64,000 nucleotides of DNA from Candidatus Binatia bacterium (GTDB lineage Bacteria > Desulfobacterota > Binatia > UBA12015): the NCBI GenBank assembly GCA_029248525.1, contig JAQWJE010000039.1:248001-312000 (forward strand), read 5' to 3'. The position numbers and the translations under genes were made by a program. Shown piece after piece: positions 44,508 through 54,282 of this stretch. A model generated the notes under the pieces. It had not been told where the DNA came from. It did not search any database and saw only the letters and a list, made by a program, of their open reading frames with translations. The stretch's first letter is position 1; the number at the start of each line of letters is the position of its first letter.

Positions 44508-45526
44508 GAAGGCTCGCAAAAGCTTTTCTGCTGGTGTTTCTGCTTGGACTGAGCATCGAAGTAGCGGTGCGAATCAGCGGACATGCGGGTCCGTTTGTGA
44601 CCGATCCAGCTTTTCATGCCCGGCCCGGCGCATCCTATTGGCAATACCGCGCCGACCGTCAATTCACGGTCTACGGGCCAACCGACCTTCGCACTGGACC
44701 TCTGGGCGAGCGAAGGCACGGACCCCGGGGACCGAAAACGGGTCCGCTCGTGGCCGTTTTTGGAGATTCCTTCACGTTCGGCCAGGCGGTTGCAGACCAC
44801 GAGACCTGGCCTGCCCAATTGGAGGCGGCACTGCGTCCTCGCTTTCCCGGCGTCCGGGTTATGAACTTCGGTGTTCAGGGCCACTCCCTCCGCATGATCG
44901 TTGCGCATGCACAGGAGCGATTGCAGACGATTCGCCCGGCGTTGGTCGTGCTGGCGTTCATCGGGGATGACCTCGATCCGGGTCGAGAGCAAAAACATGT
45001 CGATCGCTTCGGCTATCTGGCGCGCGGCGGCCCCGATCAGCCGATCGACCGAACATCTGAATTATTAAGGGCAATAGCTCGACAATCGCATGGCCTGTTG
45101 TGGTTCAAGCACTGGCTGATGCGAGTCGTCCCGTCGAGCGAGAACCCGGAGCCCAGCGCTCTCATCGCCACCGTGGAGACCCGAGAGCAGCCTGTCGCCG
45201 TGCTGCCTGCGAATTTACCGGTCTTGATCGAAAGCCTCGCCGACACGCCCTTGATTCTCGCAGAGCTGGACCTTGCCGAAACGAAGAAGAGTCGATGGCT
45301 TCGCCGCGAGCTGGAGCGGAGGCTTCCCGAAGTGTCGTTGGTTTATATGCCGCCGAATTTCAGCTCTGCACCGGATTCCGTATGGCGGGTTCCGGGCGAC
45401 GGCCATCCTTCTGGACCAGCCCATGCCATTTACGCCTCGACGCTGGTACCGGCGGTCTCGCAGGCCCTCGAAAAACCGGCGGCGGCCGACGCGCTCATCG
45501 GCACTGCCCCCGGGAAGACGCCCTAG
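44504..45526 (+). CDS. SGNH/GDSL-type hydrolase
   Basis: 340 residues, starting at a TTG that overlaps the crotonase stop (TTGA). An N-terminal membrane or signal segment (RRLAKAFLLVFLLGLSIEVA) precedes the GDSL block VFGDSFTFGQ with the nucleophile Ser, NFGVQGHS, and the catalytic Asp-His block PGDGHPSGPAH near the C-terminus. It resembles AlgX/acetyltransferase-like or esterase members that act outside the cytosol. Its stop interlocks with the convergent thiolase gene. Confidence 0.78.
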   Translation: MRRLAKAFLLVFLLGLSIEVAVRISGHAGPFVTDPAFHARPGASYWQYRADRQFTVYGPTDLRTGPLGERRHGPRGPKTGPLVAVFGDSFTFGQAVADHETWPAQLEAALRPRFPGVRVMNFGVQGHSLRMIVAHAQERLQTIRPALVVLAFIGDDLDPGREQKHVDRFGYLARGGPDQPIDRTSELLRAIARQSHGLLWFKHWLMRVVPSSENPEPSALIATVETREQPVAVLPANLPVLIESLADTPLILAELDLAETKKSRWLRRELERRLPEVSLVYMPPNFSSAPDSVWRVPGDGHPSGPAHAIYASTLVPAVSQALEKPAAADALIGTAPGKTP

Positions 45527-46677
45527 GGCATCCCCAGAATCGCGATGCCGCAGGTCGTCGGTGGGCCACCGATATTATGACTCAGGGCAGTAGTGGCATT
45601 CTTGATCTGGCGCTGCTCGGCTTTGCCCTGCAGCTGCTTCACATTCTCGTAAATCATCCGGATTCCGGTTGCGCCGGTCGGGTGCCCGAAGGTCTTGAGA
45701 CCACCATCGGTATTCACCGGAAGCTCCCCTCCGAGCTCGAAGGTGCCGCTCGCGACATGATCCTTGGCCGAGCCTTTTTCGCAAAGACCCAGGTCTTCGT
45801 AGGAGAGCATCTCGGTAAGAGTGAAACAGTCGTGCAGTTGGACGACGTCGATCTCCTTGAACGGATCCGAGATCCCCGCCATCGCATAGGCGTCCTGAGC
45901 CGCGATCTGGGTCGGTTTCCAGCCGAGGAAATCAAAGTTCGGGTCGCGCTGCGGGTGCTCGCTGCAAGCTACCGTGACCGCCTTGACCAAAACATGGTCA
46001 TCACGAACTTGCTTGGCGAGATCGGCCCGGGTCAGGATCACGGCTGAGGCGCCATCGGATTGAGCCGCGCAATCAAACAGTCCGAAGGGCCAGGAAATGA
46101 TCCTCGCCTTCAAAACATCTTCGACGGTGATCTCCTTTTTCAGCATGCTTTTGGGAGCCAGCGTCCCATTATGATGATTTTTGACGGCGATCTTCGCGAG
46201 ATCCTCGCGTCCTGCACCATAGGTTTCGAAATAGCGCGCCGCGCACAGGCTGAACCAGCCGGCAGGCGTTGCCGGAAGGCCACGAACTTTGTCGAAGCTC
46301 ACAGACGGCCCGGAGACTCCACGATCCTTGGGCTTGTCGAAGCCGACCACCAGGACCTTGTCGTAGACGCCCGCCGCAATCGCGAAAACGCCGAATCGAA
46401 AGGCATCGGTGCCCGTCTGGCAGTAGTCGGAGACCACGGAGATCGGCTTGCCGAAAATCTTGAGGGCTTCGGCGATCTCCGCGCTGCCGTCGCGGGGATA
46501 GACAGCTCCTGCGAAAATCGCATCGATCTCGTCCTGAGGACTCTCGATGCCGGCATCGGCGTACGCCTCGTAGCACGCATCGACAATCATATCTTCGCGC
46601 GATTTGTCCCAGTTCTCCCCGAACTGGCAGCAGCCCGCACCCACAATTGCGACCTTGTCGCGTAATGATTCACTCAT
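45523..46677 (-). CDS. Thiolase family protein (SCP2/archaeal-type acetyl-CoA C-acetyltransferase)
   Basis: 384 residues. The nucleophile is C86 in SDYCQTGTDAF; VQLHDCFTLTEML and NTDGGLKTFGHPTGATG give the His and the second Cys/His region typical of the SCP2-thiolase type. It could condense two acetyl-CoA or cleave a 3-ketoacyl-CoA. Its start overlaps the stop of the HMG-CoA-synthase-like gene by 4 bases. That neighbour carries a DUF35 domain, the arrangement known for the archaeal thiolase/HMG-CoA synthase complex. Confidence 0.85.
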   Translation of the reverse strand: MSESLRDKVAIVGAGCCQFGENWDKSREDMIVDACYEAYADAGIESPQDEIDAIFAGAVYPRDGSAEIAEALKIFGKPISVVSDYCQTGTDAFRFGVFAIAAGVYDKVLVVGFDKPKDRGVSGPSVSFDKVRGLPATPAGWFSLCAARYFETYGAGREDLAKIAVKNHHNGTLAPKSMLKKEITVEDVLKARIISWPFGLFDCAAQSDGASAVILTRADLAKQVRDDHVLVKAVTVACSEHPQRDPNFDFLGWKPTQIAAQDAYAMAGISDPFKEIDVVQLHDCFTLTEMLSYEDLGLCEKGSAKDHVASGTFELGGELPVNTDGGLKTFGHPTGATGIRMIYENVKQLQGKAEQRQIKNATTALSHNIGGPPTTCGIAILGMP

Positions 46678-48095
46678 GATACGTCTCCAGCGCTGAAGGG
46701 CAGGGCCTTCCAGAAATAATTGGGCTTACCGCCCGCATCGTGAATCTTGCGGAAAGTAAATTTGACCGGCAAGTCGAGTTTCACGTCGGCCGGCTCGGTA
46801 TCAGCCATTTGCACTTGAATCCGACAACCGTCGACCTCGGTGATCACAACGATCGTCGGGGGCTCTGCTTTCGGGAAAAAGAAATCAAAGGTGTAGCTCA
46901 AAACAACGCCTGTCCGATCCGAGAGACGAACACGCTCGAAGGTGTCCTTCGAGCGGCAGGAGTAGCAGACACGTTGCTTCGGGAAGTGGATCTGGCCACA
47001 AGCCGTGCACCTCTCCCCAACGAACCCGATATCAGCGTCGCGCTCCCGGTATCGAATCGTTGCCGAGAGCCCGAGATCCTTGCCCGTTTCCCACTCGCCG
47101 GCAGCCAGGCCTCTGGACTTCAGATAGGAATCGTAACTCTTGAGTGGGCGGCGACGGTCGAGATGGCCGGACACCCCAAGCCGTGGAGCCAGGCTCTCAA
47201 TCGCTTTCTGGACCTCGAAGGCCATTGCGTGCGCACCATCTCCGTATGCCGCGGTGAGCAGGCGGTCCCCGGAGCGTGCTCGCTCGAGCGAAGCCGCCAG
47301 CAGCATCATGCCATATGCAGCGCCGGTATTTCCGACGCGCCCGATAAGAAGATCCTGCACTTGCTCGCGTCCCAGCCCAAGCCCCTTCATGACCCCGCCA
47401 ATACTTCGGGCGTCGGGAGCGACGATGGCCGCGGACGCGAAGTCCCCGATACCGTGGCCGGTTTTTTCGAGCAATGCGCTCAGGACCTCGATCATGGCTG
47501 GTGTGTAGCCCTCCTGGATGATGAACCGGTCCTCCCATGCGTGGGTAAAGTTCTCGCCGTCACCGCGCCAATAATCCTGAAACTCGTTGGCAACACTATG
47601 GGCGCCATCGAGTTTGGCGATCACGTCGGTGCCGCTGACCAGAAAGGCGGCGGCTCCGTCGCCCAATTTGGCTTCGAGAGCGCCCCGGGGACTTCCCATC
47701 CGACAGTCCGCCGCAACCACCAATACGTTGTGCGCGGCGCCTGAGCTGACCGCATGGATCGCGTTCTCGAGCGCGGTGCTGCCGCAGCGCAGCGACCCGG
47801 ATACGTCCTGAGTCTGAACGTCGCGTTTGAGGTCCAGGGCGCGGGCGACCACAGTGGCGGCCTGTTTTTCGCGCTGAGCGTAGCTGGTCGAGGCGAAAAC
47901 AAGCGCATCCACGTCGTTCCGGTCGATCTCGCCGAGACAGTCGATTCCCGCGGCCACGGCCATCGTGACGACATCTTCATCATCTCCAGCGACCGCTTTC
48001 TCTGGTCCGCCGTCTTTCGCTGCTCGGCCCTGAATCAAGGCAAGAGGTAGGCGGGTCCTCGGGATATAGGCGCCATAGGCTCTGATTCCACTCAT
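46674..48095 (-). CDS. HMG-CoA-synthase/KAS III-like enzyme fused to a DUF35 OB-fold domain
   Basis: 473 residues from the ATG at 48095 (MSGIRAYGAYIP). The N-terminal part (about 1-330) is a thiolase-fold condensing enzyme of the HMG-CoA synthase/3-oxoacyl-ACP synthase III type, with the nucleophile C104 in SLRCGSTALENA. The C-terminal part (about 340-473) is a DUF35 domain: zinc ribbon C363/C366/C377/C380 (ERCTACGQIH...VCYSCRSK) followed by an OB fold. In archaea DUF35 is a separate protein that bridges thiolase and HMG-CoA synthase. Here it is fused to the synthase and the thiolase gene overlaps by 4 bases. Confidence 0.83.
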   Translation of the reverse strand: MSGIRAYGAYIPRTRLPLALIQGRAAKDGGPEKAVAGDDEDVVTMAVAAGIDCLGEIDRNDVDALVFASTSYAQREKQAATVVARALDLKRDVQTQDVSGSLRCGSTALENAIHAVSSGAAHNVLVVAADCRMGSPRGALEAKLGDGAAAFLVSGTDVIAKLDGAHSVANEFQDYWRGDGENFTHAWEDRFIIQEGYTPAMIEVLSALLEKTGHGIGDFASAAIVAPDARSIGGVMKGLGLGREQVQDLLIGRVGNTGAAYGMMLLAASLERARSGDRLLTAAYGDGAHAMAFEVQKAIESLAPRLGVSGHLDRRRPLKSYDSYLKSRGLAAGEWETGKDLGLSATIRYRERDADIGFVGERCTACGQIHFPKQRVCYSCRSKDTFERVRLSDRTGVVLSYTFDFFFPKAEPPTIVVITEVDGCRIQVQMADTEPADVKLDLPVKFTFRKIHDAGGKPNYFWKALPFSAGDVS

Positions 48096-48223
48096 CCGTT
48101 CAAATTCTCCTCTCGTGGCACCCAAGGGTGCCCGTGTATCTTTCCCTAGCAGGAGGCTCACGCGCAAACGACTCACGGGCAAAGCATCGCAACCGGCGCC
48201 CAGTTCCCGTATGAAGTTTCTCC

Positions 48224-49000
48224 ATGCGGATTGCCTCTTGGAATATCAACGGGATGAAGGCGCGCCTGGGCTACCTGAAGCATTGGCTGGAAGCACGGCA
48301 ACCAGACGTTGTCGGTTTGCAGGAATTGAAGATGCAGGACGACCAGTTCCCCCACGAAGCACTGGCGGAAATCGGCTACCACGCGGTCGTTCACGGACAG
48401 AAGGCCTGGAACGGCGTGGCGGTACTGACACGCGAGAAGCCTGCGGAACTTGTGTGCCGCGGACTGCCCGGGCAGGAGGAAATGGGCTCCCGGCTGATCG
48501 CTACCCGCGTGGATGGACTGAACTTCATCACAGTTTACGTTCCGAATGGGAAAAACCTTGAGCACGAAGACTACCAGCGAAAGCTGAAATGGTATGACGA
48601 CCTGCAGCGATTTCTCGTCGATACATTCGACGCGGGCGACCCCCTTGTGCTCTGCGGTGACTTCAATATTTGTCCCACCCCGCTGGACTCTCACGGTGGG
48701 GAGGGCGCCGACGGCAATATTTTCCATACGACGGCAGAGCGCGATCGCGTAACGACCTTGTTGGGCTGGGGCTTCACGGATCTTTACCGCCACCTCCATC
48801 CCGACGAGCAGACCTTTTCCTGGTGGGATTACCGAGCCGGTGCATTTCCGCGAAACCGAGGCTTGCGAATCGATTTCCTCCTCGGCACTCCGGCCGTGCA
48901 GGAACGCGTCCTGCACGTCGAAACCGATCGTGACTATCGCAAGAAAAAAGATGAATTATCCGCATCCGATCATGCGCCCGTACTGGCGGATCTTCGATGA
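48224..49000 (+). CDS. xthA: Exodeoxyribonuclease III
   Basis: 258 residues. The signatures are SWNINGMKARL, LQELKMQDDQFP (catalytic Glu), GDFNICPTPLD, LRIDFLLGTPAVQ and SASDHAPVLADL at the C-terminus, which match XthA. It cuts at abasic sites and removes 3' blocking groups during base excision repair. Its stop overlaps the ATG of the Maf-YggS fusion gene by 4 bases. Confidence 0.93.
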   Translation: MRIASWNINGMKARLGYLKHWLEARQPDVVGLQELKMQDDQFPHEALAEIGYHAVVHGQKAWNGVAVLTREKPAELVCRGLPGQEEMGSRLIATRVDGLNFITVYVPNGKNLEHEDYQRKLKWYDDLQRFLVDTFDAGDPLVLCGDFNICPTPLDSHGGEGADGNIFHTTAERDRVTTLLGWGFTDLYRHLHPDEQTFSWWDYRAGAFPRNRGLRIDFLLGTPAVQERVLHVETDRDYRKKKDELSASDHAPVLADLR

Positions 49001-50271
49001 GGAAGGTGATTCTCGCCAGCGCGTCGCCGCGGCGCCACGATCTCCTCGCGCGCATCGTGTACCCCTACACAATCGTGCCCGCCAATATCGACGAATCGCC
49101 ACTCCGGGGGGAATCACCAACCGACTATGTGCATCGCCTGGCGCGATCAAAGGCTCTGGCCGTGAGTGCCGACTACCCGGCGCATGCGGTACTCGGTGCC
49201 GACACGATCGTGGTGCTCGATGGTGAGATGCTTGGCAAGCCCCGAGACCCGGAGGACGCCCTTCGCATGCTTGGAAGGCTCGCCGGAAGGCAACATGAGG
49301 TCCATACCGGCGTGGCCTGGGCACTCAATGCGCAGGTGCGTCATTCGGGACACTTCACGAGCAAGGTTCATTTGCGCGAGAGCAGCGATCAGGAACGAGC
49401 GGCGTATGTCGCGACAGGCGATCCAATGGACAAGGCGGGTTCCTACGCGATTCAGGGCGACGCGGGATCGCTGGTGACTCGGGTCGACGGATCGATCACA
49501 AACGTGATCGGATTGCCGCTTGCCGAAACGGAAGCCATGGCTCGGTCTCTGGGCCTCGATGCCCCGCAGGGCCCGCTGCCGGCCGATGCCGTAGAGCGTC
49601 GGTTTCGGGCCGTGAGCGGAGAGATTCAGGCAACCGCCGCCGCGCATGGTCGAGGTGTCCACGACGTCGATCTCATCACGGTGATCAAGGGCCTGCCGGT
49701 GGAACTCGCCGAGGCTGCCGTTCGGGCGGGAGCGCGCGACCTTGGCGAAAATTATGTCCAGGAGGCACAGGCAAAGCGCTCTCGGATCGGCCCCGGACCT
49801 CGCTGGCATCTGATCGGACCGCTGCAGTCCAACAAGGCGAAACTCGCAGCTGCAAATTTCGATCTCATCCACACAGTGAGCCGCGCGAAAACCGCGACGG
49901 CGCTGGCGCGACACGCCGATGGCGATTGCCGGATGCTCCTTCAAGTGAATATCAGCGATGATCCGGCCAAGGCAGGCTTGCGGATCGAGGAGGTCGAGCC
50001 ACTGGCCGAGAGCCTGCGCAACGAGCCCGGAGTTATCGTGGAGGGTCTCATGACGATCGGTCGCGCGGGCACGTCCGCGCAGGCGACGCGTGCCAGCTTT
50101 GCGGCTCTTTCGGAATGCCTGAAAGATTTAAGGGCTCGAGAGCGGGTGCAAGGCAGCACTCTTTCCATGGGGATGAGTGCCGACTATGATCTGGCAATAG
50201 CGGAAGGGGCAACACTCGTTCGCCTCGGGACGGCGATCATGGGACCGCGGTCACCGCGGGAGGAGGGGTAG
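48997..50271 (+). CDS. Fusion of Maf nucleotide pyrophosphatase and YggS PLP-binding protein
   Basis: 424 residues in one uninterrupted frame. Residues 1 to about 192 are a Maf protein: SASPRRHDLL (8-17), ADTIVVLDGEMLGKP and the GSYAIQGDAGSLV segment that holds the substrate. Residues about 199-424 are YggS: the PLP lysine in LITVIKGLP (K231), GENYVQEAQAK, WHLIGPLQSNK (270-280) and MGMSADYDLAIAEGATLVRLGTAIMG. Maf hydrolyses modified or canonical nucleoside triphosphates; YggS keeps pyridoxal phosphate in balance. The join has no stop or start between. It lies between xthA and proC, and yggS next to proC is a common arrangement. Confidence 0.92.
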   Translation: MRKVILASASPRRHDLLARIVYPYTIVPANIDESPLRGESPTDYVHRLARSKALAVSADYPAHAVLGADTIVVLDGEMLGKPRDPEDALRMLGRLAGRQHEVHTGVAWALNAQVRHSGHFTSKVHLRESSDQERAAYVATGDPMDKAGSYAIQGDAGSLVTRVDGSITNVIGLPLAETEAMARSLGLDAPQGPLPADAVERRFRAVSGEIQATAAAHGRGVHDVDLITVIKGLPVELAEAAVRAGARDLGENYVQEAQAKRSRIGPGPRWHLIGPLQSNKAKLAAANFDLIHTVSRAKTATALARHADGDCRMLLQVNISDDPAKAGLRIEEVEPLAESLRNEPGVIVEGLMTIGRAGTSAQATRASFAALSECLKDLRARERVQGSTLSMGMSADYDLAIAEGATLVRLGTAIMGPRSPREEG

Positions 50272-50274
50272 GGC

Positions 50275-51087
50275 ATGGAAACGATCGGATTCATCGGAGC
50301 TGGAAACATGGCTTGCGCTCTCGGCGGCGGCATTGCGCGGGCCACCGAATCATCATCTTCCTTCGAGGTGATTGCCAGCGATCCAAGCCCTGACGCACGC
50401 AAAAGGTTTACAGAGGAAGTGGGCGGCGCCACCTGCGATAGCGTGACGGAACTGGCGCGCCGTGCGGATGTGGTGATCCTCGCCGTGAAGCCACAAATTT
50501 TACCGAATCTTCTTCCGGAGATTTCGGCAGCCAATCACCGAGATTCTCTGATCGTATCGATCGCCGCCGGTATTCCTCTGGCCTTCATGCAGGCCGGGTT
50601 GGGCGCGTCCGCAAGGATCATCCGCGCGATGCCGAACACGCCGGCCCTGATCCGGCGCGGAATGACCGTGCTGGTGCCGGGGACGGCTGCGACGCCGGAA
50701 GATCTGGCCTTGACGGGGCGTCTATTTGCGACGGCAGGCCGGGTGCTGACGCACGAGGACGAGTCCGTCCTCGATGCGGTTACTGCCGTGAGTGGCAGTG
50801 GGCCCGGCTTTTTCTTTGCGTATGCCGAAGCGATGATTGCCGCCGGGATTCGGGCGGGACTAAGCCGGGAGATGACTGAAGTTCTGGTCCAGGAAACCCT
50901 TGCGGGGTCGGCTGAGCTTTGGCGGTCTTCCGGCAAGGCGGCCGGTGCGCTGCGTGAGCAGGTCACGTCGCCGGGGGGAACGACCGAGGCGGGGCTTGCG
51001 GCGCTGAATGACGAGGGCCTGGCGGCGGCGGCCGATGCCGCCGTTGCTGCAGCGACGGCCCGTTCCCGACAGTTGTCAGGAAACTGA
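50275..51087 (+). CDS. proC: Pyrroline-5-carboxylate reductase
   Basis: 270 residues, 3 bases after the Maf-YggS gene. The NAD(P)-binding loop is GFIGAGNMACALGGG, followed by the P5C-reductase signature PNTPALIRRGMTVL and VSGSGPGFFFAYAEAMIAAGI. It makes proline from pyrroline-5-carboxylate in the cytosol. It ends 22 bases before the yggT gene. Confidence 0.95.
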   Translation: METIGFIGAGNMACALGGGIARATESSSSFEVIASDPSPDARKRFTEEVGGATCDSVTELARRADVVILAVKPQILPNLLPEISAANHRDSLIVSIAAGIPLAFMQAGLGASARIIRAMPNTPALIRRGMTVLVPGTAATPEDLALTGRLFATAGRVLTHEDESVLDAVTAVSGSGPGFFFAYAEAMIAAGIRAGLSREMTEVLVQETLAGSAELWRSSGKAAGALREQVTSPGGTTEAGLAALNDEGLAAAADAAVAAATARSRQLSGN

Positions 51088-51109
51088 GTCTCTGCAAGGA
51101 GAAGTAGAT

Positions 51110-51436
51110 ATGTTTGTGATGGGGAATTTCCTTCAAGCTGTTGCTGCCGTTCTCGACGCGCTACTGAATCTCTATTGGTGGCTCATCATCGGGTCGGTCG
51201 TGGTTTCGTGGATTGGCGCCGATCCCTACAACCCGATCATTCGTTTTTTGCGTGGCGCTACCGAGCCAGTCTTCTATCAGATACGCACCCGTCTCCCGAT
51301 GGTCTTCGGTGGCATGGATTTCACACCGATCGTCGTTCTGCTCGCGATCCAATTCCTTCGGATTTTCCTTGTACAAAGCCTTTATCAGGCTGCGGACGGA
51401 CTGGGTGGACAAGACCGGCTTGGATTCTTACTCTAG
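51110..51436 (+). CDS. YggT-family membrane protein
   Basis: 108 residues from the ATG at 51110, behind a clear AAGGAGAAG ribosome site. Two YGGT-type membrane segments ([21 protein letters not shown] and [18 protein letters not shown]) flank [18 protein letters not shown]. The family is widespread, often next to proC and yggS, with a possible role in envelope or cell division; its exact function is unknown. Confidence 0.87.
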
Positions 51437-51876: not shown

Positions 51877-52323
51877 TCAGGCAGCTTTGTCTTCTGCGAG
51901 GGCGGCGATCTTCTTCTCCAGACTGGAAACCTTCCGCTTGAGCGCATCGACTTCGCTTTTCGTGGACAGGCGCAAGCTTTTCGCGAGGTTGCTGACGGCC
52001 TTCAGGAATTCCGACTGGAGGCTCTCGACCTGCTTTTCGACAAATGGCGGAATTGTCAGGAAATCTGGCCAGACGCCGGCACGTTCTTCGATCGATTCGC
52101 GGGCATCGTCAAGGTTCTTGCGCACTAACTTCAGAGTCTTTTCGGTTTGTTCGCGGGCATCGTCCAGAGCCTTCTCCGACCGATTGCGAACCTCGCCTGC
52201 GGTGGTTCGCACCATCTCGCGAGCCTTTTCGTCGAGTTCCTTCATCTGCGCCATAGCGCCGTCCAACGGTGCCCAGGCGGTGCTGTCTTCGCTCGTCGTC
52301 TCGTCTGCATTTTCCATTAGCAT
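51877..52323 (-). CDS. Phasin-like coiled-coil protein
   Basis: 148 residues (or 146 from the second ATG at 52317). It is almost wholly helical and highly charged, with a central coiled-coil-like region (about 30-85) and a C-terminal heptad-like LSTKSEVDALKRKVSSLEKKIAAL, which is typical of poly(3-hydroxyalkanoate) granule-associated phasin proteins. A phasin would coat storage granules, but no polymer synthase gene is in the window. Other coiled-coil proteins cannot be excluded. Confidence 0.6.
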   Translation of the reverse strand: MLMENADETTSEDSTAWAPLDGAMAQMKELDEKAREMVRTTAGEVRNRSEKALDDAREQTEKTLKLVRKNLDDARESIEERAGVWPDFLTIPPFVEKQVESLQSEFLKAVSNLAKSLRLSTKSEVDALKRKVSSLEKKIAALAEDKAA

Positions 52324-52494: not shown

Positions 52495-54282
52495 ATGAAT
52501 CAGAAACGCGTTCTTCCTTGGCTCGGCTTTGCGCTGGTGGCCATCCTGTTTTTTTCACGGATAGCCGGGTTCTCGTTTCAGGATCCCGATGAAGGCCGAT
52601 ACGCGCGGGTGCCTCAAGAGATGCTGAATGCGGGCAACTGGCTGACACCCAGCCTCGCCAGCGTTCCCTATTTCGAGAAACCACCCCTCTTCTATTGGCT
52701 AGTGGCCAGCGCCTACAGCCTCTTCGGCCAGAGCGAGGGAGCCGCCCGGGCGGTTCCGGCACTAGCGGCTTTCCTCACGGTCTGGATGACATTCAGCTTC
52801 GGCCGTCACCATTTTGGCCAGCGGGCAGGGCTTCTCGCTGCCGGCATTCTCGCCACAGCACCTCTGTTTTTTATTTTTTCGCAATCGCTCGTGATCGATA
52901 TGGTCCTCACGGCCTGTTTTACGGCGACGATGTTCGCCTTTTACCGGGCATGCGAGGCCGAGGCGAAAACGCGCTGGGTATTAGCCACCGTCGTCGCTGC
53001 TTCGCTAGCGATCCTCGCCAAGGGGCTGCTCGGCTTGGTGCTTCCCGGCGCGATTGCCGTGCTCACGCTGATCGTTCGGCGGGACAGCGCGACTCTTCGC
53101 GCTCTGTTGCGACCCGCCCCGATCGGACTTTTCCTCCTGATCACGATGCCCTGGTTCATCTGGATGAGCGCCACCCACCCAGAGTTTTTGCAATATTTTT
53201 TGATCGAGAACCATTTCGGACGCTTCCTCGATGCAGAGGGCTATGGAATCGCTCATCCCGAGGGACCCTGGTTCTACTTGCCGGTCATGCTCCTTACCCC
53301 TCTGCCGTGGTCCTTGGCGCCATTCCTTCTCGCGGGGCAAACAGCCACGCGCAGGGCGTTCGGTCTCGTCCGTAAGGATCTACTGGTGTTCTTCCTCCTT
53401 TGGGCGCTTGTCGTGATTTTGTTCTTTTCCGCGTCCAGTTCGAAACTTCCTCCCTATGTTTTGCCAGCGTTTCCCCCGCTCGCGTTGCTTCTTGGTGCAT
53501 GGCTTGATCTGGCAATGGACGAAGAGCTCGAGGAGCCCTTGCTGCTCCGGGTGATCTGGCCCGCCCTGATCAGTTTGGGCATTTTGTTTCTGATGGCATC
53601 GCTCGGGGCGCTCCTGTTCGGGGGATTTCTGGCGACATCTTTTCCGGGGAACGGCAGCGAGATTTTGGCGATTCGCAACGCGGTGTTTTTCGCTGGAATT
53701 GCGCTGGTGCTTGGCGGCGCTCTTTGGGCCCGGCAGCGTCGCTCCCGGCTTCCCGTCGATCTGATTCTGCTGATGATTTTGACGATAGGGGCGACCGAAC
53801 TCGGCGCCGTGGGCGCCCGGAGTGTCGCCAAATCCGGACGCGCGGCGGCACAGATTCTGAACGATCAGGCTGAACCTGAGGATTTGATCGTGATGTACCG
53901 GCAACTCAGCCAATCGCTGCTGTTTTACGCCGACCGCCGCCCCATCCACCTCGATGACTTCGTCGAATTGACGGAATTGGTCGCCTTGATGCCCGCCGCC
54001 GATCGCGAGCCATGGTTCTGGAAAGGAAATGAGCAGCTTCTGGAGGCATGGAACTCCCCGAGGCGGGTATTTGTCTACATCAACGAGCGAAACCTGGCGA
54101 AACTGGAGCCGGAATTCGAGCGTCCCTATCGGGTGCTGGTTCGAAACCGAAAACGTCTGCTCGTGGACAATCAGGGAGGCGCGGACGACAATCGGGCCTC
54201 CGCAGGCTCAAAAGTGGGCGAAGTAGAGAAAATCGCAACGGATTCGGCTCGCAATCTGGCGGGGTCCTCCCCCGATCGCTAG
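52495..54282 (+). CDS. ArnT/PMT-like membrane glycosyltransferase
   Basis: 595 residues with about 12 membrane helices. The GT-C signature FQDPDEGRYARVPQEML near residue 30 (the periplasmic loop with the catalytic Asp/Glu) and KPPLFYWLVASAYSLFG place it with ArnT and dolichyl-phosphate-type mannosyltransferases. It would transfer a sugar from a lipid-linked donor to lipid A, a polysaccharide or protein at the outer face. A soluble C-terminal part (about 470-595) follows. The 170-base gap before it shows no gene. Confidence 0.82.
   Translation: MNQKRVLPWLGFALVAILFFSRIAGFSFQDPDEGRYARVPQEMLNAGNWLTPSLASVPYFEKPPLFYWLVASAYSLFGQSEGAARAVPALAAFLTVWMTFSFGRHHFGQRAGLLAAGILATAPLFFIFSQSLVIDMVLTACFTATMFAFYRACEAEAKTRWVLATVVAASLAILAKGLLGLVLPGAIAVLTLIVRRDSATLRALLRPAPIGLFLLITMPWFIWMSATHPEFLQYFLIENHFGRFLDAEGYGIAHPEGPWFYLPVMLLTPLPWSLAPFLLAGQTATRRAFGLVRKDLLVFFLLWALVVILFFSASSSKLPPYVLPAFPPLALLLGAWLDLAMDEELEEPLLLRVIWPALISLGILFLMASLGALLFGGFLATSFPGNGSEILAIRNAVFFAGIALVLGGALWARQRRSRLPVDLILLMILTIGATELGAVGARSVAKSGRAAAQILNDQAEPEDLIVMYRQLSQSLLFYADRRPIHLDDFVELTELVALMPAADREPWFWKGNEQLLEAWNSPRRVFVYINERNLAKLEPEFERPYRVLVRNRKRLLVDNQGGADDNRASAGSKVGEVEKIATDSARNLAGSSPDR

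Follow-up and report, generated by a model that had tools for sequence, protein, structure and literature searches.

A fused maf–yggS gene conserved in a Binatia family joins two neighbours of a long-standing operon

In the window, a 64,000-nucleotide stretch of a Binatia contig, one open reading frame encodes both a Maf-type nucleotide pyrophosphatase and a pyridoxal 5'-phosphate (PLP)-binding protein of the YggS/PLPHP family. We consider it very likely that this is a true gene fusion, giving one two-domain bifunctional protein whose halves act like their separate relatives. The features of the locus are as follows.

48224..49000, + strand: xth (exonuclease III), upstream of the fusion; its TGA overlaps the ATG of the fusion (ATGA).
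48997..50271, + strand: fused maf::yggS gene, 424 aa, ATG start, TAG stop.
49003..49545, + strand: Maf domain, residues 3–183, YhdE-type nucleotide pyrophosphatase (Pfam/NCBIfam, alignment, PDB relatives 1ex2 and 4p0e).
49546..49581, + strand: linker, approximately residues 184–195 (about 12 residues; AlphaFold2 secondary structure, alignment).
49582..50250, + strand: YggS/PLPHP domain, residues 196–418, with the PLP lysine K231 (TIGR00044, alignment to 1w8g, Foldseek).
50275..51087, + strand: proC (pyrroline-5-carboxylate reductase), downstream of the fusion, starting 3 bases past its stop.
51104..51436, + strand: yggT-family membrane protein, downstream of proC (Pfam YGGT, E = 6e-19).

The presence of Maf and YggS in a single frame, proposed in the initial annotation, was confirmed by family searches, in which both halves exceeded the curated cut-offs. 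The Maf half matched Pfam PF02545 (E = 7.5e-58, residues 3–183) and NCBIfam TIGR00172 (maf; 165.9 bits vs. a cut-off of 117), and the YggS half matched Pfam Ala_racemase_N PF01168 (E = 2e-23, residues 235–417) and NCBIfam TIGR00044 (153.9 bits vs. a cut-off of 106.25, residues 205–418). Both domains had also been described as complete. This holds for Maf, whereas YggS is near-complete: the TIGR00044 match covers model positions 10–229 of 229, leaving the first nine unmatched, and YggS helix 1 (residues 196–216) is present in the predicted model of the fusion. The linker spans from the end of the last Maf helix to this helix. Moreover, the GC content at third codon positions is even over the three parts (Maf 0.71, linker 0.67, YggS 0.69), which fits one coding frame. 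The tight packing of xth, maf::yggS, proC and yggT forms an operon-like run. In the source genome (4.27 Mb assembly, 98.9% complete), the fusion is the sole Maf and the sole YggS and no stand-alone copy of either was found, ruling out that the fusion is dispensable through such extra copies. No plasmid was found with the full fused protein.

A sequencing or assembly error that deleted a stop codon, which the initial annotation had placed between residues 190 and 203 as a finding that would overturn the fusion, was weighed against the other genomes of the family. The source is a single assembly, and the contig of the other genome of the same species begins at residue 208 and so leaves the junction uncovered. 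However, among 13 other genomes of this family, whose members are uncultured bacteria, all nine with the full locus carry the fusion uninterrupted, at 50–55% identity, and these nine are independent species from five further genera. Two of the remaining genomes gave contig-end pieces (G012 holds only such a fragment) and two gave no match (G004 and G006, fragmented assemblies of 400 contigs each); most of the genomes compared are metagenome assemblies. Because the same open junction recurs in 9/9 other family loci, an error at this site is ruled out for practical purposes, its probability being vanishingly small. The initial annotation had also asked how far the architecture extends across the lineage, and besides these nine loci it was found in one genome of another Binatia family (L020).

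The residues expected at both active sites were located in an alignment of 11 fused Binatia sequences, comprising the family of the window and the one fused genome from another Binatia family (42% identical). Maf proteins share an S-R-E-K-D-K signature, and an R-T-Q set distinguishes the YhdE subfamily from YceF, which has W-Q-E (PMC3899018). The first signature corresponds to S10, R13, E33, K52, D69 and K81 and the second to R12, T70 and Q153, and all of these residues are invariant in 11/11 sequences. So is K231, the PLP Schiff-base lysine, which aligns with K36 of E. coli YggS (alignment to 1w8g). The motifs named at the outset were thus all found to be kept, SASPRR as residues 8–13, GENYVQE as residues 250–256 and K231 between them, and the MGMS and GTAI motifs of the YggS half are retained as well. 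With both residue signatures, a score above the cut-off and a predicted Maf fold, the N-terminal half belongs to the YhdE subfamily; with a score above the cut-off, the PLP lysine and the phosphate-site motifs, the C-terminal half belongs to YggS/PLPHP. Every active-site residue is retained, and we saw no sign of a decayed or inactive domain. Immediately after the PLP lysine, the fused family reads KG(H/L/Q) (residues 231–233, window positions 49687–49695; L003–L011) where E. coli has KTK, the G being typical of the family. Loss of the E. coli-type K38 was rejected as a hallmark of fusion, as this position also varies in unfused members of the class.

The structure of the fusion was predicted with AlphaFold2 using the 11-sequence alignment as input (mean pLDDT 89.6, pTM 0.88), and the model is predicted to consist of two standard folds. 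Foldseek matched the Maf half to 4heb and 1ex2 (target TM 0.89–0.92) and the YggS half to 1w8g and 7u9h (target TM 0.91), and none of the 50 matches listed was a solved structure covering both halves (query TM at most 0.50). The pTM of this one monomer model suggests that the halves may have a preferred arrangement rather than a loose tether. Maf proteins dimerise via their C-terminal region (PMC3899018), which here lies just before the linker; therefore, a dimer formed through the Maf halves and carrying two YggS halves would be expected.

The fusion is much less surprising in view of its unfused relatives, because maf and yggS are usually adjacent in this lineage. The initial annotation had stated that the usual forms are separate genes; they are separate, although mostly neighbours in this lineage. 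In most loci read from the class and the phylum, the two genes are arranged head-to-tail on one strand, with yggS immediately after maf, and within the class the pair is mostly followed by proC and usually by yggT. Many unfused pairs also share a reading frame, with one or two stops between the genes. Some families of the class appear to be unlinked, with the Maf and YggS matches on different contigs (for example, f2 and f12). The head-to-tail order and the frequently shared frame, often with one stop, indicate that the fusion joined long-standing operon neighbours.

Fused genes were also found in 4/291 sampled genomes of the Bdellovibrio phylum (L146, L152, L153 and L159), L152 being the same locus as L066 of a Bdellovibrionaceae MAG. 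In L153 and L159 the N-terminal part of YggS is shortened at the junction. No fusion was found in samples from four other phyla, namely 398 genomes from the phylum of a Marinobacter, 199 from that of an Acidobacteriaceae MAG, 199 from that of a Paenibacillus and 241 from that of an Anaerolineae genome; these four negatives are weak, since a distant fusion such as that of L159 (1.2e-48) could escape the E-value limits used for them (1e-50, 1e-45). In a tree of 86 Maf and YggS pairs, the family of the window forms one strongly supported clade and the fused state needs four changes, while an AU test does not reject a single origin of all Binatia fusions (p = 0.133). A fair reading is therefore that there were at least two origins, one or two in Binatia and at least one in the Bdellovibrio phylum, and the Maf–YggS fusion probably arose more than once.

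YhdE-type Maf proteins act on dTTP, UTP and modified pyrimidine NTPs, yielding NMPs (PMC3899018), and YggS, which has no known catalytic activity, carries PLP on a lysine and influences the balance of B6 and of amino acids (PMC9601805). Both activities likely persist in the fusion, to judge from its sequence, because all site residues are kept. Under our preferred explanation, the family ancestor would have lost the maf stop beside a same-strand yggS in a maf-yggS-proC-yggT operon. The N-terminal half would then hydrolyse pyrimidine NTPs (of the dTTP/UTP/m5UTP/pseudo-UTP type) to NMP and PPi, and the C-terminal half would serve in B6 homeostasis by binding PLP through K231. The benefit may be fixed 1:1 production of the halves from one message rather than a channelled reaction, and such co-production is probably the advantage of the fusion. 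No new mechanism is needed to account for it.

The initial annotation went further and saw in the gene a link between nucleotide clean-up and vitamin B6 balance. The sequence points to such a link at the physical and transcriptional level, whereas functional coupling goes beyond what it demonstrates. Coupling would mean that the Maf half is controlled by whether the YggS half has PLP bound, or that nucleotide binding controls B6 delivery, and, if true, it would tie vitamin B6 state to nucleotide pools such as dTTP. Synthesis of dTTP depends on the PLP enzyme SHMT. Work in E. coli has addressed the transfer of PLP by YggS to apo-SHMT (PMC9601805), and the fixation of the fusion in the whole family, its probable recurrence and the preferred placement of the halves that the model suggests are in keeping with coupling. 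However, simple adjacency also predicts recurrent fusion, many relatives keep maf and yggS apart, and the linker, unlike the two active sites, shows poor sequence conservation. We therefore consider coupling unlikely, and slightly less likely still its form as a regulated device, in which YggS-bound PLP tunes pyrimidine-NTP hydrolysis by Maf, or the reverse, so that B6 status is tied to dTTP/UTP pools.

More doubtful again is that the gene yields two proteins, with an internal start in the linker or helix 1 producing free YggS beside the fusion. All ten family members do have an in-frame GTG (or ATG/TTG) after the Maf core and before the PLP lysine, but GTGs of this kind are to be expected where a gene is rich in valine and in GC. 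Moreover, the candidate codons differ in position between family members and have no clear Shine-Dalgarno motifs before them, and initiation near residue 206 would halve helix 1.

The fusion is an apparently undescribed combination of two well-known families, and we found no earlier report of it in the open-access literature. Known already are Maf fusions as such (ASMTL) and the genomic association between the yggS family and proC. The N-terminal half shares the six signature residues, R-T-Q and the predicted fold with YhdE-subfamily Maf (E. coli YhdE, B. subtilis BSU28050/Maf; 4p0e, 1ex2), which is a single-domain protein, whereas here YggS directly follows the C-terminal dimer-forming region. 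The C-terminal half shares the PLP lysine, GENYVQE, WHLIGPLQSNK, LSMGMS and GTAI with YggS/PLPHP (COG0325; E. coli YggS 1w8g, PipY 5nlc), normally a free small protein and here part of a larger one; K38 and the K233/K234 tail of E. coli YggS are not kept. Human ASMTL and other eukaryotic Maf–methyltransferase fusions likewise have an N-terminal YhdE-like Maf and a second domain, but that domain is a predicted methyltransferase (PMC3899018). The yggS-proC-yggT and pipY-sepF-proC clusters have the same operon context, with proC and yggT following, although yggS is a separate gene there.

A family-wide, recurrent fusion is a 'Rosetta stone' hint that Maf and YggS may act in one process; this hint loses force because the two genes already lie side by side, so that only the loss of a stop is needed. 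The cellular role of Maf is debated and, to our knowledge, YggS has no settled molecular mechanism. The fusion offers a single purifiable protein in which the mutual effects of both halves could be measured.

Three other parts of the window were recorded. Upstream of xth and beside a thiolase gene (45523..46677, − strand), a 502-aa protein (46674..48182, − strand) carries a ChsH2-type zinc ribbon and an OB-fold together with a part of the thiolase superfamily, which gave a weak ACP synthase III C-terminal match. Downstream of the operon, a phasin-like protein below the Pfam cut-off lies on the opposite strand (51877..52323, − strand), and an ArnT/PMT-type glycosyltransferase (52495..54282, + strand) also comes after the operon.
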